The translations under genes were made by a program, and so were the position numbers. Of a stretch of DNA of 64,000 nucleotides, positions 41,701 through 63,193 are shown piece after piece. How positions within the stretch are numbered: position 1 is the first letter of the stretch; the number at the start of each line of letters is the position of its first letter. Below the pieces are notes generated by a model, which searched no databases, was not told where the DNA came from, and saw only the letters and a program-made list of their open reading frames with translations. Source of the stretch: Verrucomicrobiia bacterium (GTDB lineage: Bacteria; Verrucomicrobiota; Verrucomicrobiia; Verrucomicrobiales; DEV007); the NCBI GenBank assembly GCA_030425385.1, contig JAUIAH010000007.1, positions 62,001 through 126,000 on the forward strand. Reading direction: 5' to 3'.

Positions 41701-42087
41701 TTCCGCGGCCACATGGTCGTTCTCTGTGATGCCCACACGGCTTCTGATGGCGAAGCCTTCGCCGAAGGTTTCCGTCGTTTGGGGCTTGGCAAGGTCATCG
41801 GCACACGCACCTGGGGCGGCGAGATCTGGCTCGGGTCCCGCAATCGCCTCAGCGATCACGGGCTCGCCCGTGCGCCGAGCGCAGGCGTCTACGGACCAGA
41901 GCGGCAATGGCTCATCGAGCAAGTCGGGGTCATCCCAGACATCGAAGTCGAGAATCTCCCACACGCCACCTACCACGGTGCGGATGCCCAACTCGACGCC
42001 GGGATCGCGTATCTGTTAGAAACCATCGAGCAGGATCCTCGCAAAGTCCCCAAGCCACCGCGCTTCCCAGACCTCTCCATCGAGTGA
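38800..42087 (+). CDS. Tricorn-like S41 family protease, exported
   Basis: A 1095-residue relative of the archaeal tricorn protease. An N-terminal signal (ILFFLTFLSLLAGASA) precedes a first propeller with PD40 repeats (GDLWSVSIDGGLARRLT, HPRISPDGITLAF), a second propeller near 320-540, and an acidic insert near 550-575. A PDZ-type domain lies near 790-870 (VIQRINGVETLTVPHIGALL) and the S41 core follows. The nucleophile is the Ser of TASDGEAF near residue 982, the acidic partner is probably the Glu of WGGEIW near 1008, and LHTSVRYG could provide the His. These proteases degrade peptides handed on by larger proteases. An alternative start at ATG 38824 cannot be excluded. Confidence 0.9.
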   Translation: MKLRFTEWMNAWRSILFFLTFLSLLAGASAVEGYYRYPTIHRDQIVFTAEGDLWSVSIDGGLARRLTTHLGEETHPRISPDGITLAFTASYEGPKEVYTMPIDGGLPQRWTYEEEPSTCTGWTPQGEIVYATTHFATLPDLQMVAIHPETKARRRLPLAEAAEGSFDATGKSVYFVRPTDHRNVTKRYTGGTARQIWRYTAGDAEAVRLTHGHRGEAHHPMWWEGRVYFLTDRDGTMNLWSMTEVGDDLTQHTHHRDFDVRQASLSEGRIVYHRAGDLYVYTVEPAADRKLSIRLVSDLDQLREKWVKDPMDYLTHLDLHPKGEKIVATSRGRVFVLPVTSGRTVRVTREPGVRFRDAVFSADGKEVIALSDASSEFEFVRMTTDGLSPATPITRDGDVLRYDGRPSPDGKWLVYHDHREDMWLLEIASGLQRKISTNNNGVGGASWSPDSRWLAFEQTAHNTFSQIILHRVSDGHSIELTTDRANSTDPVWHPKGEWLYFLSDRHFETLVGSPWGARQPDPYFDRKMRLYQVSLQKGLRSLFRPDDELSRAEKDENDEDEKKSDRDGDAHEKSESTITVEIDADGFQRRLQVVPIPPGNYGSLQGNAQALFFTERETGSGAKTHLKALAITHDDPEVIQLTDDVRSFQVSADGKKMLIRKGSNIYVTEAKASTVGDLGEARVALNDWHFSIDVREDWRQIYTDAWRMERDYFYDPGMHGIDWEAMHAKYLPLVDRVTTREELSDVIGRLIGELSALHTSVRYGDLREGQDNIRVPSLGARLERDEALGGYRIAHIYLADPDYPQERSPLDHPELDVSIGDVIQRINGVETLTVPHIGALLRGQAGKQVRLGIHQPASEKSIEAIVVPITHGRALRYDDWEYSRRLKVEEASDGKIGYVHLQAMGRGDLEQWYREFYPVFDRQGLIIDVRHNRGGNIESFVLAKLMRKAWMYWQSREHRPEWNMQYAFRGHMVVLCDAHTASDGEAFAEGFRRLGLGKVIGTRTWGGEIWLGSRNRLSDHGLARAPSAGVYGPERQWLIEQVGVIPDIEVENLPHATYHGADAQLDAGIAYLLETIEQDPRKVPKPPRFPDLSIE

Positions 42088-42964: not shown

Positions 42965-43000
42965 CAATCACGTCAGATTCGGGTATTGTTTGGTCAGGAA

Positions 43001-46000
43001 ATGGAGATTCAGAATGCTTCCGACGACTCGCGATGCCAGCGATGTGGTTTCCCACTGGCACAGGATCGCCTTGCTTCCTGTCCGCGATGTGTTTCCCAGC
43101 TCTCCTTGACCGAATTGTCAGGAGAGAATTGGAATGAGGTCCTCTGCGACAACTTTCCTCATTTGGAAATCATTCGCCCGGTGGACGACGCTGATTTCCG
43201 TTGGTTCGATATCCGGACCTGGGAGGGCCATGCCCCGGGATGCTTGCATGTGAATCCTGCTATCGAGGAGTCGGACGCGGTGCGTGCGCAATTGCGATGC
43301 CGGTCGTTGTTGGAGGACGCGTCTATCGCGTTGCTTGAGGATTACGGATGGATTGATGGGATCTTCTACGCCATCCTTCGCCTACCGGAGGGTGCCGACC
43401 TTAGTCTAGCAGAGGCACTGGCCGAAGGGAAATTGAGCCGAACGGAAGTCCTCGCCATTCAGGCGCAGTTGCGAGAGGCTGTGGAGGCGGGGAACGCCAA
43501 GGGCTTTTCCATCGATGCCCAGCCGACTCAGGTGCGTCTCGATGCTGGCGGCCGCCCGCACATCATCTCCATCTGGCCGACCGCCTCTCCGGCGTCTGAC
43601 GATTGGCTTCGGAAAGATCACCTGGTCGGTACGGAGATAGGGCGGTATCGCTTAGAGCGTTTGTTAGGCGAGGGAGGCTTTGCCGAGGTGTATCTGGCCA
43701 CGCAGCAGCGCCCTGTCCGTCGACCTGTGGCCTTGAAGATCCTCAAGTCGGGTATGGATACGCGTCAGGTCATCGGGCGCTTTGAAACGGAGCGCAATCT
43801 GCTCGCCCTCCTGGATCACCCAGGCATCGCCAAGGTCTATGACGCAGGCGCCACCCCGGCAGGACAGCCATTCTTTGCCATGGAGTACGTGGATGGCTTG
43901 CCACTCACGGAATTCGCGCGCGGCCATCGGCTTTCTATCGAGGCACGCCTCCATTTGTTTGTGAAACTTTGCCAGGCCATGCAGCACGCGCATGAGAATG
44001 GCGTCGTTCATCGGGACCTCAAGCCACCGAATGTGCTCGTGTCAGAAATCGATGATGCCCCACAACTGAAGATCATCGATTTCGGCATCGCCAAAGTGTT
44101 GGGTGGTCCGTTAGGGGAACACACCCTCTACACAGAACTCAACCAGTTTGTGGGTTCCCCGGGCTACATGAGCCCAGAGCAGGCCGAGCTCGGGGCGCAG
44201 GTGGATCATCGCGCAGACATCTACGCCATGGGGACGCTCCTCTTCGAACTGCTCACGGGGGAGACCCCCTTGGCCAAGGAGCGCTTCATCGGCCTCCCGC
44301 ACGAGGCCAAGGTCCAGCTCGTGCGTGAGACCGTGCCGGAGAGCCTGACCCAGCGCTTTCGCGCCCTCACCGATTTCGAATCCCACGCGGAGACCCTTCA
44401 GACATCCCCGCAGGCCTTGGAGCAGCATGCGAGGCATGGCCTGAACGAGATCGTTCGCAAAGCCACGCGGCGCGACCCAGCTGAGCGCTACCCGTCTGCC
44501 AAGGCTTTTGGCGATACTGTCCAGACCTTTCTTAAAGGCGAGTTTCGCCCCACTCCCTGGTGGCGCAAGATCCCGCGCCCTATCATTTGGTCCACGCCCA
44601 CCCTCTGCCTCGTGGTGGGGCTCGTTGCTCTCTTGAGCCACTCCCATCAGGCGCACCAAGAGCGCCAGCGAATCGCTTTCGCGCCGCCTCCCGTGGATCC
44701 GGCGCGTGTGTTAAGCGACCCGACGAATCCACCGCTCGTGTGGATCGAGCCCGGAACCATGGTGCTGGGAGAGGGGAAGAATCGGCGCACGGTGACGTTC
44801 AAGAAGCCCTTCGCGCTCGGGCAGTTCGAGGTCACGCAAGCCGAGTATCAGGCCATCATGAGCGGGCATCGGTTCTTCGAAGACGATGTTAGGGACGCCA
44901 CGCCAAGCGCGTTCTCCGAAGCGGGTCCCTACGCGCCGGTTGAGAATGTGTCCTGGCACGATGCCGTACGCTACTGCGCGTGGCTGAGCAGATTGGAGTA
45001 TTCGGACAGCAATAAAGACCTCCCCAGTGGCTTCATCTACTCCTTGCCCACGGAAGAGGAATGGGAATTCGCCGTTCGGCAAGGGCTCCTCACAGAGTCG
45101 CGGAAACGCATCGCTGCCCAGCACTACGAAGAGCCCCTCCTGTGGTCGCGGAACAACAGTCGGGTGCGTTATTCGGGTGGCGTGTCCTTGGAGGTCGATG
45201 GCATCCGCGCCTATCATGGCACGCAGTCCGTAGGCACCTCCTATCCCAATGCCATGGGGATCTATGATCTCTTGGGCAATGTCTCCGAATGGATGCATGA
45301 TTTCCCTTTGGAAGTTGGTGGGCCCTTTCTTTCTACCAATCTTGGAGGCCCCCCCACAGGCACTCGGGGAGTCGTGCGCGGAGGGTCATGGGCCTCACCC
45401 GCCGAGGAATGGGAGCCCCAGTGGAGAAGAGAGCTACCCATGGCGAGCATGGACCATCGCATTGGCTTTCGCGTGGCCGCAGTCCATTACGAGCGGCGCG
45501 CCTACAATCCGATACCCAAGTACAATGCCCTTGAGATCCGTGATCAACGCCAGGAACTCCAGATTGTGTCTGAGGATCATCTGAAGCATCCCGTGATCCT
45601 GGATTTCGAGACGCTTCCGCTGGGTCCCATCTCGGCAGAGCACCCGCTCTTCCAAGCCATAGGCATTGAGGGCATCTACCTGCGTTCGAGCGATTTCATC
45701 GTCGAGAAGGACCCCACCAGTCAATATGGCAGGATGTTATGGAGTCGGAAAGCAGATGAATTGGAGGTGATTGATGGCGATACACCAGGGCCCTTTGCCC
45801 ATAGCTTGGATTATACGATCACGTTCAAGGAACCGCAAACGGTGGTAGGATTTCGATTGAGTGAAAGGGCGGATCGTCTGCAAATCGAAGTTGGCAATGG
45901 GCATCTGATTGAAACCAAGCAGTATCTCCCTGAGACCAGTGGCGAGCTGATCGTGGTGCGCCGCAACCAACCCTTTGATCGCCTTCGATTGCTTCCCTGG

Positions 46001-47449
46001 ATAGACACGTTTAGATACCAAAGAACCATCCAAGGGAAGGGGTTTGGAATCGAGCAATTGGTGTTAGAAGGGCTTGCCGATGACGTTCCCACGAATCTAG
46101 GGCATCTCCTCACCACATCAAGACGAACGAGCGAAGCCAATATTGAGCGTGTGCGTGATCTCCAGGACTTGGAACTCACGGCAGAGAACCTTCGCTTGGC
46201 ATCGCTAGCCGAGACGGAATCAGAAGGTCAGGGTCTGGGAAGGGTGCTGCGGTTCTCTCGATCGCTTACCGGTCTGCCTACGGAATTTGAAGTGCAGGCG
46301 GAGGGCGGCGAGTGGTTCAATATATCGGATGCGCCTGGTGTGCAGCTTAGGGCGACGACTTCAGAAAAGGTCGTGATCCAGTTTGAATTCTTGGATCAGG
46401 AGTGTCGACGTCTTTCGATGAATGTGAATCTACCACAGCCCCCGGAGGATCACGAGGAGATTCGAGTATTGACGAATGGGAATGCCTGGGTGCGTTATCC
46501 GCTGCGAGAATTCTGGATCGAAGACGAGCAGATCCTGGAGATCACTCTTGAGGCAACGGCTTCTATTGATCGCATGGAAGTCGATTGTTCATTGACGAAG
46601 GGCGCCTCCGTTATTCTGCGAAGGATGGCCTTTGGAATGGGCAGCATTCACGAGGGGCGTGTCTTACACGCCCCCCACTTGTCTCCAGTAGTGATCCAGA
46701 ATGGGGGATGCGTTTGGATTGAATCGGAGACAATCAGGAAGCTAACGCATCCCAATGAACGCAAGGTCTCCGCCACCACTTATTTGAGGCATCCAGCAAC
46801 CGCGCGACTGCCCATTGGCGGTGGAGAAGTTATTGATTTCTCGCGAAGGAGAAGAGCGTTGTTACGCGGTTCGCTTTCAAATGGAACACCTGTCTATTTC
46901 CCCATGGATTCTGCGCATTTCCGGCTCTTGAATCAATCCAGAGTTCATTATACGAGTAATCTCAGTTACAGAACATTCTTTCCCCACATGGATATGCTTC
47001 GGTCGCAGGGGAACGTCCCACCTGGATTACCGCAAACCTTCATGTTCGATGGTATCGCGTTCACCCTAAAGCGTCTTCCTGATGGAGACATCCAATTGCG
47101 CGCCAGCGGCAATCGATCCGCTTTCGATGGAGGCGGCCAGCCCTTTCGCCTAGTGGCAGGCTTGTCTCCTGATGGCAAGACGCTCGCCTGGGATCTCTTT
47201 GAAGATCCATGGGTGATCGATGCTCAAGTGTCTGCCAATAGTGCCAATAACCCCGAAGGACACTGGGAGATCACGCGTCGCGAGGAGTGTCCGCTCGATC
47301 CGAACCGTGGGTATGCCTACTTCTTCACCATCGAACGCTTGGAGGAGGGACAAGATCCGCATCCGTCGCAAGACGAGTGTACGGACTGGTACACCTGGCG
47401 GGACACCCGCAAAGATCCGGAAAGCGTTTATATCTTAATGAGCCCCTGA
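43001..47449 (+). CDS. Zinc-ribbon Ser/Thr kinase fused to an FGE-like and C-terminal beta domain
   Basis: A 1482-residue chimera. Start ATG 43001 follows CAGGAA; the TTG at 42986 is less likely. Residues 12-30 form a zinc ribbon (CQRC, then CPRC). The kinase spans about 210-500: LGEGGFAEVYLA, VALKILK, HRDLKPPNVLV (336), DFGIAKVLGG, SPGYMSPEQAEL. One membrane helix near 527-546 (IIWSTPTLCLVVGLVALL) places the rest outside. Residues about 573-830 are a formylglycine-generating-enzyme (SUMF1) fold: WIEPGTMVLGE, PTEEEWEFAV, LGNVSEWMHDF, GVVRGGSWAS and GFRVAAV. The catalytic Cys pair of true FGE is missing, so it is probably a ligand-binding variant. The last 650 residues are beta-rich and unrecognised. 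It probably senses outside and signals to the sigma factor upstream. Confidence 0.88.
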   Translation: MEIQNASDDSRCQRCGFPLAQDRLASCPRCVSQLSLTELSGENWNEVLCDNFPHLEIIRPVDDADFRWFDIRTWEGHAPGCLHVNPAIEESDAVRAQLRCRSLLEDASIALLEDYGWIDGIFYAILRLPEGADLSLAEALAEGKLSRTEVLAIQAQLREAVEAGNAKGFSIDAQPTQVRLDAGGRPHIISIWPTASPASDDWLRKDHLVGTEIGRYRLERLLGEGGFAEVYLATQQRPVRRPVALKILKSGMDTRQVIGRFETERNLLALLDHPGIAKVYDAGATPAGQPFFAMEYVDGLPLTEFARGHRLSIEARLHLFVKLCQAMQHAHENGVVHRDLKPPNVLVSEIDDAPQLKIIDFGIAKVLGGPLGEHTLYTELNQFVGSPGYMSPEQAELGAQVDHRADIYAMGTLLFELLTGETPLAKERFIGLPHEAKVQLVRETVPESLTQRFRALTDFESHAETLQTSPQALEQHARHGLNEIVRKATRRDPAERYPSAKAFGDTVQTFLKGEFRPTPWWRKIPRPIIWSTPTLCLVVGLVALLSHSHQAHQERQRIAFAPPPVDPARVLSDPTNPPLVWIEPGTMVLGEGKNRRTVTFKKPFALGQFEVTQAEYQAIMSGHRFFEDDVRDATPSAFSEAGPYAPVENVSWHDAVRYCAWLSRLEYSDSNKDLPSGFIYSLPTEEEWEFAVRQGLLTESRKRIAAQHYEEPLLWSRNNSRVRYSGGVSLEVDGIRAYHGTQSVGTSYPNAMGIYDLLGNVSEWMHDFPLEVGGPFLSTNLGGPPTGTRGVVRGGSWASPAEEWEPQWRRELPMASMDHRIGFRVAAVHYERRAYNPIPKYNALEIRDQRQELQIVSEDHLKHPVILDFETLPLGPISAEHPLFQAIGIEGIYLRSSDFIVEKDPTSQYGRMLWSRKADELEVIDGDTPGPFAHSLDYTITFKEPQTVVGFRLSERADRLQIEVGNGHLIETKQYLPETSGELIVVRRNQPFDRLRLLPWIDTFRYQRTIQGKGFGIEQLVLEGLADDVPTNLGHLLTTSRRTSEANIERVRDLQDLELTAENLRLASLAETESEGQGLGRVLRFSRSLTGLPTEFEVQAEGGEWFNISDAPGVQLRATTSEKVVIQFEFLDQECRRLSMNVNLPQPPEDHEEIRVLTNGNAWVRYPLREFWIEDEQILEITLEATASIDRMEVDCSLTKGASVILRRMAFGMGSIHEGRVLHAPHLSPVVIQNGGCVWIESETIRKLTHPNERKVSATTYLRHPATARLPIGGGEVIDFSRRRRALLRGSLSNGTPVYFPMDSAHFRLLNQSRVHYTSNLSYRTFFPHMDMLRSQGNVPPGLPQTFMFDGIAFTLKRLPDGDIQLRASGNRSAFDGGGQPFRLVAGLSPDGKTLAWDLFEDPWVIDAQVSANSANNPEGHWEITRREECPLDPNRGYAYFFTIERLEEGQDPHPSQDECTDWYTWRDTRKDPESVYILMSP

Positions 47450-50704: not shown

Positions 50705-52735
50705 CTATTCCCGATAGATAAGAACACGGTAGTAGCCTTGTAATAAACTTGCGCGATTTGCCTCGTCATCCTTATACGAACTAGCACCGGCGACGACCGC
50801 GATTGGTACCCAATTTAGAAGATCAGTCGAGTGTTGAACTTCAGCTAGTTGATTCGAATTGATTGATTTCCATGTGATAGTGGTGCTATTAGATACGCGA
50901 GTGATCTCAGTTGGAGTCACTGAGTATAGACCGCCAGAAGCCGTTGTTGCTTGATCGTTGGAGAATCCTCGAAAATCCTCTAGATCGAGTGGTGCGTCTT
51001 CGATGAACAGATCGTGCTCAGAATTGATTCTCACTTCACGAATCACGTCCGTTCTACCATCACCATTAATATCTTCAAAGCGTAGTGCATTGTTCTTGTA
51101 TTTTGAGTGATTTAAAATTTGCCACCCTGATTTGGCCCCATATGAAATCTGCCACGTAGTGCCATTGCCAATAAAGACATCATCCCGTCCATCTCCATCA
51201 AAATCTCCAAATGCCAGGTCGCTTGTTCTGTACTGGGAGTTTCCTAGTTTTTCCCAACCTGACCGCCCACTCCACGAGACATGCCACGCAGAACCGTCGC
51301 CAATAAAAATATCGTCCTCACCATCCCCATTTAGATCTGCAAACGCTAGGTCGCTTGTTTTGTACTGGGAGTTTCCTAGTTTTTCCCAACCTGACCGCCC
51401 ACTCCATGAAACATGCCACGCAGAACCGTTGCCGATAAAAATATCGGTTTGGTTATCGCCATTGAAGTCAGCAAAAGCCAAGTCGCTCGTTCTGTAACCT
51501 GAGTTTCCCACCTTTTCCCAGCCAGAAGTGCCAGACCACGATATTTGCCAAGTTGAGCCGTTTGCTACAAAGACATCTGTTATTCCGTCACCATTGAAAT
51601 CTCCTAATCGAAGAGTCTCTCCTTGGTATTTCGATGTGCCCAGTCTTTTCCATGAGGTCTTACTATCATCAGAGATCCACCAATTGAAACCATCCGCGTA
51701 AAACATATCAACGACTCCGTCTCCATAAAAGTCTCCATATTGCAACTGGCTAGTTTGATACCAATTAAAAATAAATGATTTCCAGGAGCTTATTCCAGAA
51801 TAGGAAACTCTTTGCGAATAGGCACCTCCCTTAGGATAGATTAAGTTTACACCCAGTTTGTCACGAGATGAAAGTGTTTCATTTTGTGATAGTTCAAAGT
51901 CTCCAATTGTAAGCCTGTTCAGTACATCGTAGTGCATAATTGACAAAGGGTCGTATGTCGTAACACTTTGAGTGACTGGGGGAGATAATACGTTGCGATC
52001 GACTTTTTCTTTGCTCCAGCCATATTTTTCTTCATAATACTCGTATACCGAATCATGATCCCATGGGATATTGGCGTCTGGATGGAATTGCTCGTGCGTG
52101 AACCCTAATGCATGTCCAAACTCATGTAGCACTACATGCCTAGGGACTGGCCAAGCGATATGTGGTCGTTCAGGGTCGATCACACCTAGATTCATCGTGG
52201 GTTCTCCTTCAATATCCAACGCATCCGTCCCTATCCATGAAGAGTATCTACTATTTTGGAATGAGATTCGTATGTCGCTTTGTTCTACGGGCGCTATTCT
52301 AAACTGAATATTTGCGTAAGCGGACCACTCTTTTGCATCCTCAAGAACTTCTCTCTGTAACTGGTGCAGCCAATCATCAAAATCAGGATCGCGGGTGACG
52401 CCATCTACACTGTGATCCCAATCGTAGAATCCTACATTCAGAACTGCTCCATTCGGCCAATATCGATCATAGCCTCCGCCGCGATGTCCAGTGAGCTCGA
52501 AGAACTGATTTGAACTGTCGTTGCTTATAGGACGAGTGTTGGTAACAGCCGATAACGTTCTGGCACTACACGCCTTGTCTGTGCATTCGGCAGTTGAACA
52601 AGTCCAAACTTGTCCAAAGGTGTCGACTAAAGCTGATGGGAACATGGCAACTGTAAAAGCCACAAATGGAAGGGCTGGATGACAGGTGAAGCATGCCAAG
52701 CGGGAACGATATATTTTTACATTATACATTGCCAT
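50705..52735 (-). CDS. Astacin-like zinc metalloprotease with FG-GAP repeats
   Basis: A 676-residue exported protease in an AT-richer stretch than its neighbours. The zinc site is HEFGHALGFTHEQ, the HExxHxxGxxHE form of astacins (M12A), followed by the Met-turn in LSIMHYDV. A hydrophobic N-terminal segment (LPFVAFTVAMFPSALV) suggests export. The C-terminal half has at least five VCBS/FG-GAP repeats, each with a calcium-type GDFNGDGITDVFV motif, plus the verrucomicrobial WKSINSNQLAEVQHSTDLLNW module. Two of the repeats are nearly identical at DNA level (51216-51446). Start ATG 52735 is uncertain. The base composition suggests recent arrival by transfer. It converges on the histidine kinase gene. 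Confidence 0.85.
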   Translation of the reverse strand: MAMYNVKIYRSRLACFTCHPALPFVAFTVAMFPSALVDTFGQVWTCSTAECTDKACSARTLSAVTNTRPISNDSSNQFFELTGHRGGGYDRYWPNGAVLNVGFYDWDHSVDGVTRDPDFDDWLHQLQREVLEDAKEWSAYANIQFRIAPVEQSDIRISFQNSRYSSWIGTDALDIEGEPTMNLGVIDPERPHIAWPVPRHVVLHEFGHALGFTHEQFHPDANIPWDHDSVYEYYEEKYGWSKEKVDRNVLSPPVTQSVTTYDPLSIMHYDVLNRLTIGDFELSQNETLSSRDKLGVNLIYPKGGAYSQRVSYSGISSWKSFIFNWYQTSQLQYGDFYGDGVVDMFYADGFNWWISDDSKTSWKRLGTSKYQGETLRLGDFNGDGITDVFVANGSTWQISWSGTSGWEKVGNSGYRTSDLAFADFNGDNQTDIFIGNGSAWHVSWSGRSGWEKLGNSQYKTSDLAFADLNGDGEDDIFIGDGSAWHVSWSGRSGWEKLGNSQYRTSDLAFGDFDGDGRDDVFIGNGTTWQISYGAKSGWQILNHSKYKNNALRFEDINGDGRTDVIREVRINSEHDLFIEDAPLDLEDFRGFSNDQATTASGGLYSVTPTEITRVSNSTTITWKSINSNQLAEVQHSTDLLNWVPIAVVAGASSYKDDEANRASLLQGYYRVLIYRE
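51216..51446 (-). repeat. Near-identical tandem coding repeats, 132-base period
   Basis: The 99 bases at 51216-51314 recur at 51348-51446, offset 132 bases (44 codons), with five differences by hand alignment. They encode two FG-GAP units of the metalloprotease, so one unit was duplicated recently. The protein copies differ at two residues in this stretch (Lys/Arg and Asp/Asn). Confidence 0.8.
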
Positions 52736-53954: not shown

Positions 53955-54215
53955 ATGGAAACCATCGCCGCCATCAGCCACCCGATGCATGAGCAGGAAA
54001 GCCCCCTTGAAGAGAAACGTCTATCACGGCGAGAAGAAGAAATCCTCCGCTGGGTAGGCGAAGGAAAAACCAATGACGAAATTGCCACCATCCTGGGCAT
54101 CAGCAACCGCACCGTGGAAAAGCATCTAGAGAATATCTTCGAAAAGCTAGGCGTCCACAACCGCCTCAGCGCCTTTCTCACCTATGCCCGCCAGCAATCA
54201 GATAAGTCTTCATGA
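53955..54215 (+). CDS. Single-domain LuxR-type transcription regulator
   Basis: An 86-residue protein consisting almost wholly of a LuxR helix-turn-helix: LSRREEEILRWVGEGKTNDEIATILG then ISNRTVEKHLENIFEKLGVHNRLSAFL. There is no receiver domain. Start ATG 53955 is chosen because AAGGAG at 53943-53948 precedes it; a GTG at 53940 lies inside that site. Its stop overlaps the start of the next gene as ATGA, so it is translated together with an exported protein gene. Lacking a receiver it may be regulated by level, by dimerisation or by another partner. Confidence 0.9.
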   Translation: METIAAISHPMHEQESPLEEKRLSRREEEILRWVGEGKTNDEIATILGISNRTVEKHLENIFEKLGVHNRLSAFLTYARQQSDKSS

Positions 54216-55147
54216 GAGGATGGCCAAATCATCTACGCATTGCGATATCGGTATTGGTCATAGCGATAGGTCTAGTAGAAGAGAGTTCTGCTCAAACAGT
54301 GGCATTGACCGGGACAGCCCTTCTTAATGCTCGCGGGAGAAGTGGAGGCGCTCTTACGAGTGGGCAACTCGCACTTTTCGTGATTGATCGATCAGGGAAT
54401 GGCTTTGCCTTGATTGCCAGCGGTGGCCTGCGCGGAGGTGAAGTGGTGCGGCGCTATCTGGTGGATTCGGATGACCTCGTGGTAGGTAAGGCGATTTCCG
54501 AAGTGGTCTTTGGGACTTCTTTGATTCCTGGAGGCGTCTCATTCACTTTAGGTGCGGGGGTAGATCCGGGAGATCCTTTCGGGATCTTGTTCTTTGATGG
54601 AATGTCGGGCGATCAAGTGGAAGTTCCTGATGGTGCCAGCTACACCTTTGTCACCCATCCGACATGGATCGTTCCCAGTCGTGGTTCGGTAGCGTTTCAA
54701 GAACCAGCGGAAGGTCAATTGCAGCAGCTTGAGGATAGGCAGGCTGCCTCTTCGCTATTAACGCCAGACCTTAGCTTCAGTTTCTGGGCGCTTCAATACG
54801 GGCTTGAAGGTGTCGATGTAGGCGCCTTGGATCCCGATCAGGATGGGCAAGCCAATCTGTTAGAATACGTTTTCGGAACGGATCCGCTCGCGCACAATAT
54901 ATGGAAACATGACTTCCGACGCGATCCGGTGACGGGGAGCTTTAGAATAGAGTTCACCCCCAGGGTCGGGCGCGTGGATGGTGTAGTGGTTGTAGAAGGG
55001 TCTTCCAATTTGAAAGATTGGAGTCCTTCCTTTCCTGGATTGGCTATAATAAACGCTAGTAGTGGGACGCAAGGAATCGCCTATCACGTTCCGGATACAA
55101 TCGATCGGGGATTCTTTAGGGTATCCGCTGAGAAGAGCAATCTCTGA
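54212..55147 (+). CDS. Exported beta-domain protein with verrucomicrobial C-terminal module
   Basis: A 311-residue exported protein with a signal sequence (IAISVLVIAIGLVEESSAQ). Residues about 28-190 form a domain shared with the PEP-CTERM protein encoded next (TGTALLN, GGALTSGQLALFVID, VFGTSLIPGG, THPTWIVPSRGSVAFQEP). Then come DPDQDGQANLLEYVFGTDPL, a calcium-type linker common in this phylum, and a closing EGSSNLKDWSPSF module. No enzyme motif is seen. It begins inside the LuxR gene stop (ATGA). Confidence 0.72.
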   Translation: MRGWPNHLRIAISVLVIAIGLVEESSAQTVALTGTALLNARGRSGGALTSGQLALFVIDRSGNGFALIASGGLRGGEVVRRYLVDSDDLVVGKAISEVVFGTSLIPGGVSFTLGAGVDPGDPFGILFFDGMSGDQVEVPDGASYTFVTHPTWIVPSRGSVAFQEPAEGQLQQLEDRQAASSLLTPDLSFSFWALQYGLEGVDVGALDPDQDGQANLLEYVFGTDPLAHNIWKHDFRRDPVTGSFRIEFTPRVGRVDGVVVVEGSSNLKDWSPSFPGLAIINASSGTQGIAYHVPDTIDRGFFRVSAEKSNL

Positions 55148-55196: not shown

Positions 55197-55829
55197 ATGA
55201 TACAAATGAGACGATGGGCGTTGTCAATGGGATTGGCTACCTCGATGTTAGCGAACCAGGCATCGGCAGGGCTGATTACGATATCCGGGACTGCGATTCT
55301 AGATCCTGTAAGATCCGATGGTGCCACTCCGCTACCAGGTGGGATGTTGAGTTTCGTGGCAGTAGACACGTTGGGTGATGGATTTCGGACAACGCTATCG
55401 GACGGGGCCACGATCGCGGTGAATTCGTTTCTCGATGGATCCGATGATTATATAGTGGCGACCAATCCTACGGATTCGGTCTTTGGGCAGAGTCTTGTCC
55501 CCGGAGCCGCAGCGCTCGATAATGGAGCTCATGGGATCGGAATAGGCGACGCGATAGGAATCTATTTCTTTGAAGACGTGCCGTTGGCAAGTGAAGGAGG
55601 TATGGTCACGTTGAGTGAAGGGAGCGGATATGGATTTCAGACGGATCCGACGTGGGAGGTCTTCAGTTCCGGATCGAAGAATTTCCAGAGGCCTGCAGGC
55701 GATCAATTTCTACAGGCTTCATCGAGTGCGGTTAGTTTTAAGGTAGCAGGTGGCGCCAACGTGCCTGAGCCCTCTTCGCTAGTGCTAGCGGGAATGGTGG
55801 TTCTTTGTGCTTGCAGGCGAAAGCGTTAG
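55197..55829 (+). CDS. PEP-CTERM protein sharing a domain with its upstream neighbour
   Basis: A 210-residue exported protein with a signal (ALSMGLATSMLANQASAG) and a beta-rich domain clearly related to the one in the preceding gene: ISGTAILDP, GGMLSFVAVDTLGDGF, FLDGSDDYIVA, VFGQSLVPGA, DAIGIYFFEDVPL, FQTDPTWEVFSSGSKNFQRPAGDQ. The C-terminus is a PEP-CTERM tail, NVPEPSSLVLAGMVVLCACRRKR. The function of the shared domain is unknown. The order small LuxR, domain protein, PEP-CTERM paralog and giant protein suggests one transcription unit for surface assembly. Confidence 0.88.
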   Translation: MIQMRRWALSMGLATSMLANQASAGLITISGTAILDPVRSDGATPLPGGMLSFVAVDTLGDGFRTTLSDGATIAVNSFLDGSDDYIVATNPTDSVFGQSLVPGAAALDNGAHGIGIGDAIGIYFFEDVPLASEGGMVTLSEGSGYGFQTDPTWEVFSSGSKNFQRPAGDQFLQASSSAVSFKVAGGANVPEPSSLVLAGMVVLCACRRKR

Positions 55830-55876: not shown

Positions 55877-58800
55877 ATGAAAGAGATTGTGAGTCATTAT
55901 AAGAAGCGTATAGGAGGAGGGATCCTGGTTGTCGTAATCGGTTTGTTAGGTGTTGGGTGGTGGTGCGTTAGTCAGGATGAGGAGTGGACGGTAGGGGTGG
56001 AGTCGTTTCCATCGATCTCGGCACCGAAAGCGCACCCATTGGTAGTTAACCAAGAGGGGGCCGAAGGGATTGTGGAGCAGAGCAGAAAGGTGTTATCTGC
56101 GCCATTGCCGATGAATGCGGCGCAAGTGGGATATGAGGATCTTGGGGCGGCGATCTCGGCGGCGCGGCATGCGATCACTGAGGTGGATAAGAAACTTGGC
56201 GCGCGACCAGAGAATCAGGGTGTGCGATACTTTGCTGCCAATCCAGGGCAAGATCTGACCGCGCGCTTCTTAGATGGTCTCGTGAGGATCCAATCTGGCG
56301 TGCCGGGACGTGATTGGAAGCTGGCGTTGGGTTTGGCTGGGGCCACGGCGGCTCCGCACCGGATGGACGATGATCGGATAACCTATGATCACGGGAGGGG
56401 GCTTGTTGAGTATTACGTGAACCGCCCTGAGGGCCTGGAGCATGGATTTGTCCTCAAGACGCCACTGAAACCACGTTCTGAAGGATTGGTCGTTGGGGTG
56501 AGTGGTGATCTGCACGTGATAGAGGACGAGGAATCTCCGGGAGATCTGGCCTTTGTGGACGTGGAGGGAACGAAGGTGCTTGGTTACCAGGATCTCAAAG
56601 TATGGGATGCCAAAGGCCAGGAGCTGGAAGCGACCATGAAGCCCTATGGAGAAGGAATACTTCTGGCGTTCGACGATCGTCATGCGACTTACCCGGTGAC
56701 GATTGATCCATTGGTGGTATCCTATGAGAGTCGGCTAGATGCTGGAGATGGGACCAGCGATGATTGGTTTGGATCGTCGGTGAGTGTAGATGGGGACACA
56801 GCGGTTGTAGGGGCTCATAGAGACGACACAGCGGCAGGGAACGATGCAGGAAGTGCCTATACGTATGTACGGAGTGGGACGCAATGGATACAACAAGACA
56901 AGTTGACGGCAGAAGACGGAGCTGCCGGAGACCACTTTGGGTATTCGGTGAGTTTGGATGGGGACACGGTGGTGGTGGGTGCGTTTGGCGATGGTGATAA
57001 CGTAGGAAGCGTGTATATTTATGTTCGCAATGGAGCAGACTGGACGTTGCAGGCGAAAAGCACTGCAGAAGACGGAGCTGCCGGAGACCACTTTGGGTAT
57101 TCGGTGAGTTTGGATGGGGACACGGTGGTGGTGGGTGCGTTTGGCGATGGTGATAACGTAGGAAGCGTGTATATTTATGTTCGCAATGGGGCAGACTGGA
57201 CTTTGCAGGCGAAGTGGACTGCTGATGACGGTAATGCCGGAGATTACTTTGGGTATTCCGTGAGTATAGATGGGGACACCGTTGTGGTGGGGGCACCTGG
57301 AGATGTAGGGAGTGCGTATGTGTATGTGCGTAACGGAGCTAATTGGATGCAACAAGCTAAGTTGACGGCGGTAGATGGTGCTAGCGGGGACAACTTTGGA
57401 CGTTCGGTGAGTGTGGCTGGGGACACTGTGGTGGTAGGGGCGAGTGGAGATGACCTGGTGCCAACGCTAATGGCTTGGGGACCGGCGGCTCCAGATGTGG
57501 GGAGTGCGTATGTGTATGTGCGCAATGGAGAAAATTGGATGCAACAAGCCAAGTTGAGAGCCAACGATGGTAATGCCTGGTACTTCTTTGGATCATCGGT
57601 AAGTGTGTATGGAGATACCGTGGTGGTGGGGGCGCCATCTAACAGAAGTGCATATGTTTACGTGCGCAGCGGCACTATTTGGAATCAGGAGGCACAACTT
57701 ATGGCGGCTGATGGACCTGATTACTTTGGGAATTCCGTGAGTGTGGATCGGGGCACGGTGGTGGTGGGGGCGTATGGAGATGACACGGCGGCAGGTATGA
57801 ATGCCGGGAGCGCGTATGTGTATCACCGAAGCGGCATGCAATGGATGCAACAGGCGCAGTTGACGGCGGGAGATGGTGCTAGCGGGGACAACTTTGGACG
57901 TTCGGTGAGTGTAGATGGGGACACGGTGGTGGTGGGGGCGTATGGAGATGACACGGAGGCGGGGGTGAATGCGGGGAGCGCCTATGTGTTCACGCGCAGC
58001 GGGAACCTGTTCTGGAATCTGCAGGGCAAGCTCCTCGCGAGCGATGGCGCGGCCAATGACAATTTTGGAATCTCGGTGAGTGTCGACGGTGACACAACGG
58101 CGGTAGGCGCCTATGTTGATGATACCTCGGCGGGGACGAATGCGGGAAGCGCCTATATTTATGTGCGTGATGAGTCAGGGTGGATTCAGCAAGCCAAGTT
58201 GACCGCTAACGATGGTGCGGCAGAGGACCGCTTTGGGAGATCTGTAAGTGTGGATGGGGATACGGTATTAGTGGGAGCGCGAGGCGATGAGATGTCGACA
58301 GGAAGCGCCTATGTCTATGTAAGGAGCGAGTCGAGTTGGAGTGAACAAGCCAAGTTGGCAGCAAGTGATGGGGATGTGAACGATCAATTCGGGATCTCAG
58401 TGAGCGTGGAAGCGGACACGGCAGTGGTCGGAGCTTTTCTTGATGATACGGGGCTGGGTGTGAATGCAGGAAGTGCGTATGTCTATGTGCGTAGTGGGAC
58501 GACCTGGATGATGCAAGCAAAGCTCATAGCGAGTGATGGCGAAGCCGATGATTTATTTGGGCGATCTGTCAGTTTGAGTGGAGATTCGCTATTAATTGGG
58601 GCGCGGAATGATGAAAGCGGGACCGGGAGCGCCTACTTCTTTGAGCGTAGCGGAACGACTTGGAACGAACAGACTAAGATCGTGGCGAGCGATGGAGCAG
58701 CAGGTGACAGATTTGGGGTCTCTGTCAGTCTAAGTGGTGACATGGCGGTAGTAGGGGCGTACTTTGATGATACCTCCGCAGGCACAGACTCCGGGAGCGC

Positions 58801-61800
58801 CTACCTTTATGCTCGGGCAGGCTCAGGATGGAGTGAGCAAGCGAAGATCACTGCTCCTGATGGCGCTGCTGGTGATGAGTTTGGCCTTTCTGTGGCCTTG
58901 AGTGATACGACGATCGTGATTTCAGCATCCGCGGGCGACACCCTCGCCGGGGCGGATGCAGGTAGCGCGTCTGTGTTCACCACTTCTCTCGCCTTGGAAG
59001 CCGCCCACGAGCGATTTGCCCAGATCACGGCCCCAGATGGGAGTGCGGGTGACCGGTTTGGCATTCGGGTGGCGGCATGGGGAGAGCTGGCTTTGGTAGG
59101 AGCCAGTTGGGATATGGTAGGAGCCAATGCCTACCAAGGTTCAGCGCATCTAGTCAATCTGACAGACGGAGCTAGCATGCACACGCTGCACGCCTCTGAT
59201 GGCGCGAGTGGTGATGAGTTCGGAACGGCCGTCGCACTTTCGCCCAAGTATGCTCTTGTGGGCGCCTTCCTGAGCACCGTGAATGGGAACGCTGGACAAG
59301 GGGCTGTCTACGTGTTTGATCCGTTAGCAGGGGTGCAACAACGAAAACTGGTGGCTGCAGATGGTGCTGCGGGTGATCTTTTCGGTGCGGCTGCGGCAAT
59401 CAGTGGTCATTGGGGGCTCGTGGGTGCTCCGCGAAAGAGCGTCTCGGGCGATGCCGAGCGTGGGGCTGCGTACGTCTATGATCTCCGAGACGGCAGCCAG
59501 GTGTTGCAGTTACTCGCTCCTGATGGTCTCGCTAATGATCGTTTTGGCGTCGCGGTGGCCATATCTGGAAATGTCGCTTTGGTTGGGGCCTATCAACGGA
59601 CGGAGAATGGCCAAACGGAACAGGGGGCGGCCTATGCATTTGACGTGACGACAGGAACGCTGCTGCGAAAATTGACGGCTCCTGATGGGGCTGCCGGTGA
59701 TTTCTTCGGTTTGCGAGTGGCTCTGGATGGCAACGCAGCCTTAGTGGGTGCGTCCGGGCATGATGGCGAGGAGGGAGTGAATCAAGGAGCAGCCTACTTG
59801 TTTGACTTGGCCACAGGGAGCCTGAGAAAGAAATTTCAGTCCCCCAATGGAGCCGCATCTGACTTCTTTGGGAGCAGTGTGAGTCTGTCAGAAACACATC
59901 TTCTCATTGGAGCGTATGCTGCTGGCGAGAGTGGAGGTTCGGCTCAGGGAGCCGCCTATTTATTTGATCGCCAAAGTGATAAGTTTCTCACTCAGTATTT
60001 GGCTTCTGAAGGGATGAACGGGGACCACTTTGGGATCTCGACGGCGTTGACGAAGAAATGCGCATTGGTGGGGGCCTACTCAGCTGATATCAATGGAGCG
60101 GAGGATCAAGGGGCAGCATATGCCTTTGATCTTACTGAATTTGAGGTATTCGCGGAGGATGGGGCTGCAGGAGATCAATTTGGCGTCAGTGTTGCGGTGG
60201 CTGGAGAGCACATTCTGGTGGGAGCTGACTATGATCGGGTGAATGACCAAGATTACCAGGGTTCGGTCTACGTTCTCAACCGCCTTGGGGAGGTCCAGCA
60301 CCGTTTGACAGCTTCAGACGGGATGGCTGGGGATCAATTCGGGCTCAGAACCGAATTAACCGCTGATTATGCTTTGATAGGCGCATTTCTAAGTGATCCA
60401 GAGGGGAGCCCAAACCAAGGCGCTGCCTATGTCTTTGATCCTGTAGATGGCAGCGAACTTAGAAAAGTGGTCGCGACCGACGGTGCGGCAGGTGATTTCT
60501 TTGGAAGTGCCGTGTCTGTAGAGGGCGCTCACGGATTGATCGGAGCAAACAGTGCGGCGGTGGGAGGTGCTGTGAAGCAAGGAGCTGCTTATTTAGTTGA
60601 TCTTAGTAATGGCACTCAATTGCACAAGTTCACTGCGGCAGACGGGAATGCTGGAGACCGTTTGGGTGTTTCTACGGCTCTGGTTGGGAATCTGGCTTTT
60701 GTAGGTGCTCATTTACACGATGTGAATGGGGAAACGGACCAAGGAGCGGTGTATGTTTACGATACTCAGACAGGGAACCAGCTTCGAAAGTTGACCGCGA
60801 GTGATGGTGCTGCGAATGATCAATTTGGCGTGAAAGTTGCCGTGGAAGGCAATCATGTTTTGGTAAGCGCCTGGGGGCATCAGAGTTTTCGCGGAGCTGC
60901 TTACCTATTTGATGTCTCAAATGGCATGGAGTTGCGGAAATTTGAGGCACCGGATGGGGTAACGAATGACTACTTTGGGTCAGCTGTGGCACTGTCGGGA
61001 GATCTCGCGCTGATAGGCGCCTTTGTAGCAGACGTAGACGGCGGAACCGATCAGGGAGCCGCCTATCTATTTAACGTTCATACGGGTGAGTTTCTTCAGA
61101 AACTGACTTCCTTTAACCGGGCGGATGCGGATCGTTTTGGGGTTGCGGTAGCACTCGATGGTGCGACGGCTGTGGTGGGTGCCTACTGGGATGATGCTCT
61201 TTCGTTGGTAGATCAGGGATCGATATCGATAGTCGACGTCAGTTCTGCGATTCGCGACTACGGCGATGCTTATGATCTCTTTCCTGTTCTGGCGTCTGAT
61301 GGAGGTGCATCTCATGGAAAGTCGTGCTTAACGTTGGGTTTAGCTTGGGATTCCGAAGCTGACGGGCGCCCCAGTGGCGCGGGGGTCGGGGATGATACCG
61401 CAGGGGTTGATGATGAAGATGGATTGATCTTTCCGGCCCCAATGAAGCTCGGAGCGAGTCAAACTATCGATGTAACCGTGAGTGGTGGCGATGGCTATTT
61501 GAATGGTTGGATGGATTACAATGAAGATCATGATTGGGATGATCCAGGAGAGCATATTTTTCAGGATCAGGTCGTGCGCGAGGGCGTGAGTCAGATTACC
61601 CTCACGATTCCGCCCAGTGTGACTCCGGGCTGGAAGATGCTGCGATTTCGCCTTAGCACTAGGGCGGGACTGAATCCAGGCGGGTACGCGCCCGATGGAG
61701 AAGTGGAAGACTATCAAGTGACTGTGTTTCACCCATACAGTATCTGGATGGGATTGCCTGGCCATTTTCCAGGAGTGTATGATAGTACGATCACGGGACC

Positions 61801-63193
61801 GACGGCTAATCCAGACGGCGATGTTCATAGCAATCTCGGCGAATTCTTTTTGGGTCTGACTCCGAACCTAGGGCAGGGGAATGCGGCGATTGAAATTGGG
61901 GAAGAGGAAGTGGGAGGCCTGGTTTATCAGACGTTGAGTTATCGTCGGCGCAAAGATGCAAAGCACGTGACTTCAGAGGAGGTGCTTCGCAGCATGGACC
62001 TGCAGAGTGGCTGGAATAGTGGAGAAACAACCATCGTTCGCGTTTCCGAATTGGATTCGGAAACGGATTGGGTGACAGTGCGTTCGATCGTCCCAAAGAT
62101 TGGGCACGTGCCCGAGCAAGATCAAGAGTATCTGAAGCTTCGAGTAGAAGAAACCGTAGGGGGATCGGGTGCGGTGTATACGAGTGAGCCCAGCGGTTTT
62201 CTCCGAACAGGCACGAGTGGCAATGCGGATACCCTCATTGGGTTGCCCTTGTGGCGTCCTGCCCTATTTACAGGTAGTATTGAGGCCGTCAGTGGCAATA
62301 CATTCACGGTATTAGCTGGACTTGCCGATGGGGAATTGAGCAGTGAAAGTAATCCATTTTATGTGCACATCGTATCGGGTATCCTTGATGGGTGGTGTTT
62401 TACAGTGACGAGTAATATGGGGGATACAATAACAGTGAATCCGACCGGAGCGAGCAGTTTAGAAGATCGCGGGTTGGCCATCGGTGATTCTATTCGTATC
62501 ACTCCTCACTGGACCTTAGGAACTTGTTTTCCGAATGGCGATGGTATCATTGGTTCAAGTAGTGTTTTCAACCCTGAGAGTACGCTCAAACTATACAGTC
62601 CAGAGACACCAGGGATTAACTTTGCACCAACCAAGACATATTTGTATCATGATGGTTCTCAAGGGCCGGAGGGTTGGTATAACAATGATAGCTTGAGTAG
62701 TGGTTTGCAGAATGATGTCGTGCTTTCACCTGGTATGTTTTTTATTCTTAGGAATTCAAGAGCTCTAGCGACCGATTTCATCCATTCGGGACAAGTTCCC
62801 ACTCAACGGATAGGTATAGTTGTAGGACGCTTCGCCGACGGCGTGAGTCAGGACAACATTCTAATCAATCCCTACCCTGCACCGATGATGCTTGGAGCAA
62901 GTGGTCTCCATCTGCTTGATGAGCAAGTTTTCGAAGCCTCAAGCAGTGTCTTCAATGCGACGGATACATTAAAACTATTTGTTAACCCATCGGGAATTAA
63001 TCCGCCTCCAGACAAGACGTATCTCTATCACGATGGCTCACAAGGTCCTGCGGGGTGGTATGACAATGATCAATTAGGGAGTGGGCGTCAGAATGGCGTC
63101 ATCATTCCTCCTGGCGGGGCCATGATTGTGCGTAAACGCGCAGGGAGCCTGGGATCCGCGATGTGGTTGCCAGGGCTGACATATCAACTCTAG
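55877..63193 (+). CDS. Giant FG-GAP repeat surface protein with GEVED domain
   Basis: A 2438-residue exported protein. The N-terminus has a membrane/signal helix (GGILVVVIGLLGVGWWCV) and a domain ending in YPVTIDPLV near 272-280. I count 28 repeats of the pattern DG-x3-D-x-FG-x-SVS/AVA with DGDTVVVGA-like second halves. Repeats 1-14 (to about 58.99 kb) carry GSAYVYVRSG-type text; repeats 15-28 (to about 61.2 kb) carry QGAAYVFD-type text. FG-GAP repeats fold as seven-bladed propellers, so 28 would be four. Near 1794-1950 is a GEVED-like domain (NGWMDYNEDHDWDDPGEH). Two similar C-terminal blocks share TYLYHDGSQGP. No catalytic motif is visible. A surface or matrix role is inference. Confidence 0.85.
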   Translation: MKEIVSHYKKRIGGGILVVVIGLLGVGWWCVSQDEEWTVGVESFPSISAPKAHPLVVNQEGAEGIVEQSRKVLSAPLPMNAAQVGYEDLGAAISAARHAITEVDKKLGARPENQGVRYFAANPGQDLTARFLDGLVRIQSGVPGRDWKLALGLAGATAAPHRMDDDRITYDHGRGLVEYYVNRPEGLEHGFVLKTPLKPRSEGLVVGVSGDLHVIEDEESPGDLAFVDVEGTKVLGYQDLKVWDAKGQELEATMKPYGEGILLAFDDRHATYPVTIDPLVVSYESRLDAGDGTSDDWFGSSVSVDGDTAVVGAHRDDTAAGNDAGSAYTYVRSGTQWIQQDKLTAEDGAAGDHFGYSVSLDGDTVVVGAFGDGDNVGSVYIYVRNGADWTLQAKSTAEDGAAGDHFGYSVSLDGDTVVVGAFGDGDNVGSVYIYVRNGADWTLQAKWTADDGNAGDYFGYSVSIDGDTVVVGAPGDVGSAYVYVRNGANWMQQAKLTAVDGASGDNFGRSVSVAGDTVVVGASGDDLVPTLMAWGPAAPDVGSAYVYVRNGENWMQQAKLRANDGNAWYFFGSSVSVYGDTVVVGAPSNRSAYVYVRSGTIWNQEAQLMAADGPDYFGNSVSVDRGTVVVGAYGDDTAAGMNAGSAYVYHRSGMQWMQQAQLTAGDGASGDNFGRSVSVDGDTVVVGAYGDDTEAGVNAGSAYVFTRSGNLFWNLQGKLLASDGAANDNFGISVSVDGDTTAVGAYVDDTSAGTNAGSAYIYVRDESGWIQQAKLTANDGAAEDRFGRSVSVDGDTVLVGARGDEMSTGSAYVYVRSESSWSEQAKLAASDGDVNDQFGISVSVEADTAVVGAFLDDTGLGVNAGSAYVYVRSGTTWMMQAKLIASDGEADDLFGRSVSLSGDSLLIGARNDESGTGSAYFFERSGTTWNEQTKIVASDGAAGDRFGVSVSLSGDMAVVGAYFDDTSAGTDSGSAYLYARAGSGWSEQAKITAPDGAAGDEFGLSVALSDTTIVISASAGDTLAGADAGSASVFTTSLALEAAHERFAQITAPDGSAGDRFGIRVAAWGELALVGASWDMVGANAYQGSAHLVNLTDGASMHTLHASDGASGDEFGTAVALSPKYALVGAFLSTVNGNAGQGAVYVFDPLAGVQQRKLVAADGAAGDLFGAAAAISGHWGLVGAPRKSVSGDAERGAAYVYDLRDGSQVLQLLAPDGLANDRFGVAVAISGNVALVGAYQRTENGQTEQGAAYAFDVTTGTLLRKLTAPDGAAGDFFGLRVALDGNAALVGASGHDGEEGVNQGAAYLFDLATGSLRKKFQSPNGAASDFFGSSVSLSETHLLIGAYAAGESGGSAQGAAYLFDRQSDKFLTQYLASEGMNGDHFGISTALTKKCALVGAYSADINGAEDQGAAYAFDLTEFEVFAEDGAAGDQFGVSVAVAGEHILVGADYDRVNDQDYQGSVYVLNRLGEVQHRLTASDGMAGDQFGLRTELTADYALIGAFLSDPEGSPNQGAAYVFDPVDGSELRKVVATDGAAGDFFGSAVSVEGAHGLIGANSAAVGGAVKQGAAYLVDLSNGTQLHKFTAADGNAGDRLGVSTALVGNLAFVGAHLHDVNGETDQGAVYVYDTQTGNQLRKLTASDGAANDQFGVKVAVEGNHVLVSAWGHQSFRGAAYLFDVSNGMELRKFEAPDGVTNDYFGSAVALSGDLALIGAFVADVDGGTDQGAAYLFNVHTGEFLQKLTSFNRADADRFGVAVALDGATAVVGAYWDDALSLVDQGSISIVDVSSAIRDYGDAYDLFPVLASDGGASHGKSCLTLGLAWDSEADGRPSGAGVGDDTAGVDDEDGLIFPAPMKLGASQTIDVTVSGGDGYLNGWMDYNEDHDWDDPGEHIFQDQVVREGVSQITLTIPPSVTPGWKMLRFRLSTRAGLNPGGYAPDGEVEDYQVTVFHPYSIWMGLPGHFPGVYDSTITGPTANPDGDVHSNLGEFFLGLTPNLGQGNAAIEIGEEEVGGLVYQTLSYRRRKDAKHVTSEEVLRSMDLQSGWNSGETTIVRVSELDSETDWVTVRSIVPKIGHVPEQDQEYLKLRVEETVGGSGAVYTSEPSGFLRTGTSGNADTLIGLPLWRPALFTGSIEAVSGNTFTVLAGLADGELSSESNPFYVHIVSGILDGWCFTVTSNMGDTITVNPTGASSLEDRGLAIGDSIRITPHWTLGTCFPNGDGIIGSSSVFNPESTLKLYSPETPGINFAPTKTYLYHDGSQGPEGWYNNDSLSSGLQNDVVLSPGMFFILRNSRALATDFIHSGQVPTQRIGIVVGRFADGVSQDNILINPYPAPMMLGASGLHLLDEQVFEASSSVFNATDTLKLFVNPSGINPPPDKTYLYHDGSQGPAGWYDNDQLGSGRQNGVIIPPGGAMIVRKRAGSLGSAMWLPGLTYQL
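56909..57189 (+). repeat. Exact 125-base tandem duplication in FG-GAP repeats 2 and 3
   Basis: Bases 56909-57033 recur without a mismatch at 57065-57189, a period of 156 bases (52 codons). The first difference is at 57034 versus 57190. The copies encode FG-GAP repeats 2 and 3 of the giant protein. Identity at third positions shows that the duplication is recent or maintained by conversion. Confidence 0.88.

Follow-up and report, generated by a model that had tools for sequence, protein, structure and literature searches.

The window analysed here, a stretch of 64,000 nucleotides, contains a complete open reading frame of 2438 aa (55877..63193, + strand), whose product consists, in order, of a membrane or signal segment, an N-terminal domain, 28 FG-GAP_2 blades, a GEVED domain and a TIGR02597 domain. 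The hydrophobic N-terminal segment, as read off the translation, is a candidate signal peptide or membrane anchor (55877..55975, +; aa 1-33). The N-terminal domain that follows (56003..56716, +; aa about 43-280) ends in YPVTIDPL, has matches in relatives from as early as aa 43, and corresponds to no Pfam family. Downstream of the blades lie the GEVED domain PF20009 (61496..61723, +; aa 1874-1949; 58.4 bits, E 1.3e-15) and the C-terminal TIGR02597 domain (62180..63166, +; aa 2102-2430; 212.1 bits, NCBI cut-off 50), which has ten matches in the whole genome, five of them above the cut-off.

Directly upstream of this gene are two adjacent, secreted-looking paralogues (54212-55147 and 55197-55829, +; 34% identity, E 3e-19), of which only the second has a terminal PEP-CTERM motif; Pfam and NCBIfam profiles find none in the 2438-aa protein itself. 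A nearby gene on the opposite strand (50705-52735, -) codes for an astacin-like metallopeptidase domain followed by five repeats of a different FG-GAP family, FG-GAP_3. The window also includes a fusion of a protein kinase domain with a sulfatase-modifying-factor (FGE) domain (42986-47449, +), and a Tricorn-like protease that combines PD40 propeller repeats with PDZ and S41 peptidase domains (38800-42087, +).

Twenty-eight FG-GAP_2 blades in two classes

The protein gives 28 matches to PF14312 (FG-GAP_2), totalling 1260.7 bits against a cut-off of 23, and thus belongs to this family. The repeats span aa 291-1798 (nt 56747-61270); the interval 55877-63193, given for them in the first-pass annotation, is that of the whole gene. 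The same annotation had counted 28 repeats by the core DG-x3-D-x-FG: the count agrees with the profile matches, but the literal motif occurs only 22 times, rising to 24 in the relaxed form [DN]G-x3-[DN]-x-[FL]G (the two relaxed-only cores being NGAASDFFG and DGNAGDRLG), and the four remaining cores, at aa 564, 612, 1378 and 1747, are degenerate. Blade spacing measured by regular expression was unreliable and was set aside.

Two classes of 14 repeats with a switch near 59.0 kb, as originally proposed, are indeed present. Class 1 comprises repeats R1-R14 (starting at aa 291, 347, 399, 451, 500, 564, 612, 666, 723, 779, 831, 887, 939 and 995) and class 2 repeats R15-R28 (starting at aa 1054, 1108, 1162, 1216, 1270, 1324, 1378, 1428, 1481, 1535, 1589, 1643, 1693 and 1747), so that the switch falls at R15, aa 1054 (nt 59036). 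Mean pairwise identity is 58% within R1-14, 41% within R15-28, and 36% between the classes. As R14 and R15 are atypical for their classes, the switch is clean by count and slightly blurred in its text. A tree of the 28 repeats does not mix the classes, which separate in 84% of bootstraps, on a weakly supported branch (UFBoot 79, SH-aLRT 32). The available text of Pereira and Lupas (2022, PMC9218822) puts highly repetitive propellers above about 60% blade identity; neighbouring blades of class 1 are 65% identical, and the means of both classes, 58% and 41%, are lower.

Predicted rings and blade numbers in relatives

We modelled the two halves of the array with AlphaFold2, as aa 268-1058 (rings A and B; alignment of 17 rows) and aa 1028-1806 (rings C and D; 16 rows). 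Both models are almost all-beta. The C/D model has a pLDDT of 88.8 and a pTM of 0.73, and the A/B model a pLDDT of 83.9 and a pTM of 0.55, with pLDDT varying from 69 to 84 among its five models; moreover, the A/B alignment is made of 7+7 homologues, which biases that model toward 7+7. Residues 16-387 and 400-771 of the A/B model (aa 283-654 and 667-1038) align with integrin-alpha propellers with Z scores of 36.9-40.2 (rmsd 2.5-3.0 over 334-349 residues), and so do residues 14-397 of the C/D model (aa 1041-1424) with Z 39.9-42.6. The integrin alignments cover A, B and C. For D, the reading as a seven-bladed ring comes from strand counting and from its being in register with C: by the strand list of the model, 27 strands belong to C and as many to D, and with the one that precedes each ring the total is 28 (7 x 4) per ring. 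The closing strand of each ring probably comes from the end of the segment ahead of it, in which case the rings would tile almost without linkers. The strand preceding C is at residues 19-23 of the C/D model, and its counterpart before A is of low confidence. The segment VSYESRLDA (56717..56743, +; aa 281-289) is by its sequence a candidate for completing the last blade of ring A; homologues have QQAYLKP-like text at this place, where model confidence is low.

Four predicted propellers can thus be delimited. Propeller A (blades R1-R7, class 1; 56747..57871, +; aa 291-665) is based on FG-GAP_2 matches, identity, model, integrin alignment and propeller tree; propeller B (R8-R14, class 1; 57872..59035, +; aa 666-1053) on identity, model, integrin alignment and propeller tree; propeller C (R15-R21, class 2; 59036..60157, +; aa 1054-1427) on FG-GAP_2 matches, identity, model, integrin alignment and propeller tree; and propeller D (R22-R28, class 2, in register with C; 60158..61270, +; aa 1428-1798) on lag, register, model and tree. 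The models and integrin alignments agree with the earlier prediction of four seven-bladed propellers in two tandem pairs, and the number of blades in the models is divisible by seven.

Seven is also the prevailing unit in relatives. We took a census of FG-GAP_2 arrays of at least 3 blades in reading frames closed at both ends, smaller arrays and open-ended frames being dropped beforehand. Set 1 consisted of the window gene and 60 chosen stretches from genomes of the same order, probably Verrucomicrobiales. Set 2 consisted of 79 independently fetched loci found with the class-1 alignment, assigned by their record titles to Planctomycetota, Myxococcota, Acidobacteria, Chloroflexi, Verrucomicrobiota, Proteobacteria, Archaea and others. 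Among the closed arrays of set 2, 52 have seven blades and 12 have 14 (64/74; 66/74 with a second HMM), and eight-blade arrays are rare (2/74 with one HMM, 1/74 with the other). In set 1, 37 arrays have seven blades, five have 14 and the window gene has 28 (43/60; 40/60 with the second HMM, which gives eight blades in ten cases). As the arrays are related to one another, no p-value is attached to this census; together with the likeness of both modelled halves to the integrin-alpha propeller, it bears out the seven-blade arithmetic from which the four rings had been proposed. Among the arrays collected, the window gene is the only one-piece array of 28 and the only one with a 14-blade block of each class.

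Many of the arrays that miss 7 or 14 are off by one, and some are genes interrupted by stops. Read by eye, three arrays from Acidobacteria and Phycisphaerales MAGs (L105, L112 and the open-ended L116) have 13 blades with normal-looking starts and ends, and look like either true exceptions to seven or the result of assembly collapse of a near-identical blade; another, L053, is an exception with six blades. A ten-blade array in a Sulfurovum MAG (L131, 7272-10280) is split 6 + 4 by a stop between two blades. In a genome of the same family (G042 C57, L180-L183), an open frame of 18,544 codons contains groups of 8, 4, 6 and 7 FG-GAP hits (25 in all).

Copying within the two ring pairs

In class 2, similarity among blades peaks at lag 7, with z 3.8 by identity and 5.0 by BLOSUM (corrected over lags, p 0.001 and 0/5000 permutations, respectively). 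The C-D register scores 25.3 at shift 0 and at most 4.7 at all other shifts, and the in-register C-D score of 121.9 exceeds that of C or D against every relative (best 77). On gap-free register scores from position profiles, whose leave-one-out success was 65/92 for class-1 singles and 14/17 for class 2, a shift of one fits C and D slightly better than register 0, and junction scoring prefers register 0 by a smaller margin still. The longest exact DNA tract shared within class 2 is 16 nt, next to a maximum of 15 in a codon-shuffle null in which synonymous codons are shuffled and the proteins kept. We suggest that C and D derive from the copying of one whole ring followed by divergence, and that this is why blade n of C still matches blade n of D.

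The pattern in class 1 is different, so that the first-pass idea of an entire propeller being copied and then diverging applies to C/D but not, in that form, to A/B. Similarity is here highest at lag 1, with z 4.1 by identity (corrected p 0.007) and z 2.7 by BLOSUM (corrected p 0.15), and there is no lag-7 signal (z -0.95 and -0.85, respectively). In six other 14-blade arrays of the same order, z reaches at least 2 for lag 1 in 3/6 and for lag 7 in 1/6. At the DNA level, R2 and R3 are identical at 149 of 156 nt: they share a tract of 125 nt (56909..57033, + in R2, the same as 57065-57189 in R3), and all seven differences are confined to the final 37 nt of that 156-nt unit, which by plain arithmetic would happen by chance in about 3 in 100,000 cases if seven differences fell at random. 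R8, the first blade of B, shares exact tracts with both R5 (41 nt) and R7 (35 nt). The codon-shuffle maximum over 60 runs is 26 nt, as compared with class-1 exact tracts of 119-125, 41 and 35 nt. In relatives, excess tracts, by a threshold of our own choosing (longer by more than 5 nt than the longest tract in 8 shuffles), are present in 8/30 class-1 and 1/17 class-2 arrays, a difference too small to lean on.

The absence of a lag-7 signal, the highest similarity between neighbours and the patchy tracts indicate that the A/B pair was rewritten blade by blade. A and B, too, probably arose from a common ring, whose ring-level register would then have been erased by short-tract recombination among blades, within and across rings. 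A blade count that stays constant while only parts of blades are shared is easier to explain by gene conversion than by the copying of whole blades, and on these sequences we infer gene conversion to be the likeliest form of this recombination. Ring closure would meanwhile hold the total at a multiple of seven, the count having stayed at 14. The class-1 tracts could instead stem from recent duplication, and blades could have been collapsed by short-read assembly.

A possible but less probable alternative is that unequal crossing-over built the class-1 array blade by blade and that 14 was then selected, making gene conversion unnecessary. The lag-1 similarity of A/B, with z of at least 2 in half of the other 14-blade arrays, would agree with this, and the available text of PMC9218822 provides a precedent in propellers amplified from single blades. 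However, the identity between R2 and R3 ends inside the blade, R8 has separate tracts with R5 and R7, and excess tracts also occur in 7/24 class-1 single rings of relatives, whose blade count is seven. It is also conceivable, though unlikely, that class 1 is arranged as 8+6 (R1-R8 with a duplicated R2/R3, then R9-R14) and that 14 is partly a coincidence. An irregular tail of the boundary type, of 57 residues, is found in R8, as in blade 7 of many 14-blade homologues, while the R7 tail is regular; R2 and R3 are nearly identical; R1 is among the best matches of R9; and the best A-B register is a shift of 1, not 0. Against this arrangement, AlphaFold2 confidence dips at the R7/R8 junction (aa 666-668), and an integrin ring can be fitted to the stretch on each side of it, both observations being subject to the alignment bias; eight-blade arrays are rare in set 2; and position profiles built on all columns place B in register 0 (-10.5, the next best being -26.7). 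Core columns alone do not place B there, and A is out of register, two results that count against our own reading. For 14-blade arrays, these profiles had a leave-one-out success of 11/22 and 13/22 for the two halves. Given the R8 tail and the register results, the exact A/B ring break is less certain than the total. Junction scores were dropped here, as they are dominated by truncated last blades; they placed the 7/8 junction first in 7/22 homologues.

Short-tract recombination at a fixed count may extend beyond this gene. We tentatively propose, at somewhat less than even odds, that ongoing inter-blade conversion in class 1, within rings and between them, shuffles the order of the blades, their number being fixed by selection for ring closure, and that class 2 is exempt and so retains its ring-level record, a split that is perhaps family-wide. 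Pereira and Lupas (2022, PMC9218822) described propellers built by amplification of blades, with blade numbers that form a continuum on which peaks stand out. The repetitive propellers in the available text of that study likewise have near-identical neighbouring blades, and their WD40 counts peak at 7 and 14; the two cases differ in that a continuum lies between those peaks, whereas the FG-GAP_2 arrays collected here are mostly on 7 and 14, and in that A/B have partial tracts rather than whole-blade copies. The arrays in our census are more sharply quantised at seven than that continuum. A blade number that stays fixed despite copying between repeats is an open point in propeller evolution, and this gene allows ring copying and blade copying to be compared within one protein.

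Proposed origin and likely role of the predicted four-ring protein

A tree of 57 propellers, made by a quick method with SH-aLRT as its only support, pairs A with B (96) and C with D (91), and joins C+D (98) to L050, a protein with seven blades from the same order. A and B fall within a starred clade of 36 class-1 rows, and the branch between the two classes has a support of 74. The tree supports the first-pass proposal of two pairs of distinct origin: A and B probably derive from one class-1 ancestor, and C and D from one class-2 ancestor. As class-1-only and class-2-only proteins both occur in relatives, we infer a fusion gene. Ahead of blade 1, a YPxxIDP-type motif is present in the window gene, in 31/43 class-1-type arrays of set-1 relatives, in 0/23 class-2 arrays, and in 22/88 cases in set 2; this distribution fits a class-1 gene that gained a class-2 pair. 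Base composition scarcely separates the halves (GC 0.557 vs 0.546, GC3 0.543 vs 0.493) and gives no pointer to a recent fusion. Of the matches listed for the other 94 genomes, none extends over the entire gene, so that no ancestral state is seen, and a whole-protein scan of the named genomes found no relative. Two class-2-only proteins (L047 and L052, of four scanned) carry a DUF7453 after the ring.

Our overall reading, to which we assign a probability of about 0.72, is a secreted or membrane-anchored fusion of four seven-bladed, integrin-type rings, with C/D copied as a ring and A/B shaped by short-tract recombination. The N-terminal hydrophobic segment, the propellers, GEVED and TIGR02597 suggest an extracellular binding or scaffold protein, which would likely display four binding faces outside the cell, serving adhesion or the capture of glycans or proteins; GEVED and TIGR02597 would be additional extracellular modules. 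Propellers serve many functions, and the domains found alongside FG-GAP_2 rings vary in relatives, both of which would leave room for an enzyme or a regulatory receptor; we consider this improbable, as no catalytic Pfam or NCBIfam domain lies above cut-off in the 2438 aa. Much less probable still is an origin of all four rings by successive doubling of one ring (7 to 14 to 28), with the classes resulting from fast divergence within the gene. One core is common to all blades, and the classes remain 36% identical, but each class exists alone in relatives, the two pairs fall among those relatives in the propeller tree (A/B in the class-1 clade, C/D with L050), and there is no lag-14 signal (z -2.5).

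Bacterial FG-GAP propellers of 7 and 14 repeats are already published: in the available text of Chouhan et al. (2011, PMC3192720), they have seven, sometimes 14 signatures, with seven repeats per ring, as in our models, and an N-terminal strand that completes blade seven, to which the strand before C may correspond. The examples in that text have a calcium motif in all seven blades, while the DxDxDG calcium loop, sought as D-x-[DN]-x-[DN]-G, is absent from aa 268-1806; the gene studied here also differs in its 28 blades, four rings and two classes. The predicted fold resembles the N-terminal propeller of integrin alpha (PDB 3v4v, 4irz, 4wk0 and others), with Z 36.9-42.6, 16-23% identity and an rmsd of 2.4-3.2 over 334-384 residues, and a phmmer search of PDB sequences gave no significant match (best E 0.072). 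Integrin alpha bears a single ring, as opposed to four here, and has calcium loops (PMC3192720). The Elp2 double propeller, chains of which are among the best Foldseek matches of A/B, also has two tandem rings, but belongs to the WD40 family, is eukaryotic and is 8-10% identical to A/B. Searches of an open-access library listed no 28-blade chimera, two-class case or comparable contrast of copying modes. Apart from this contrast, the gene product adds to the very large, secreted-looking repeat proteins of its order.
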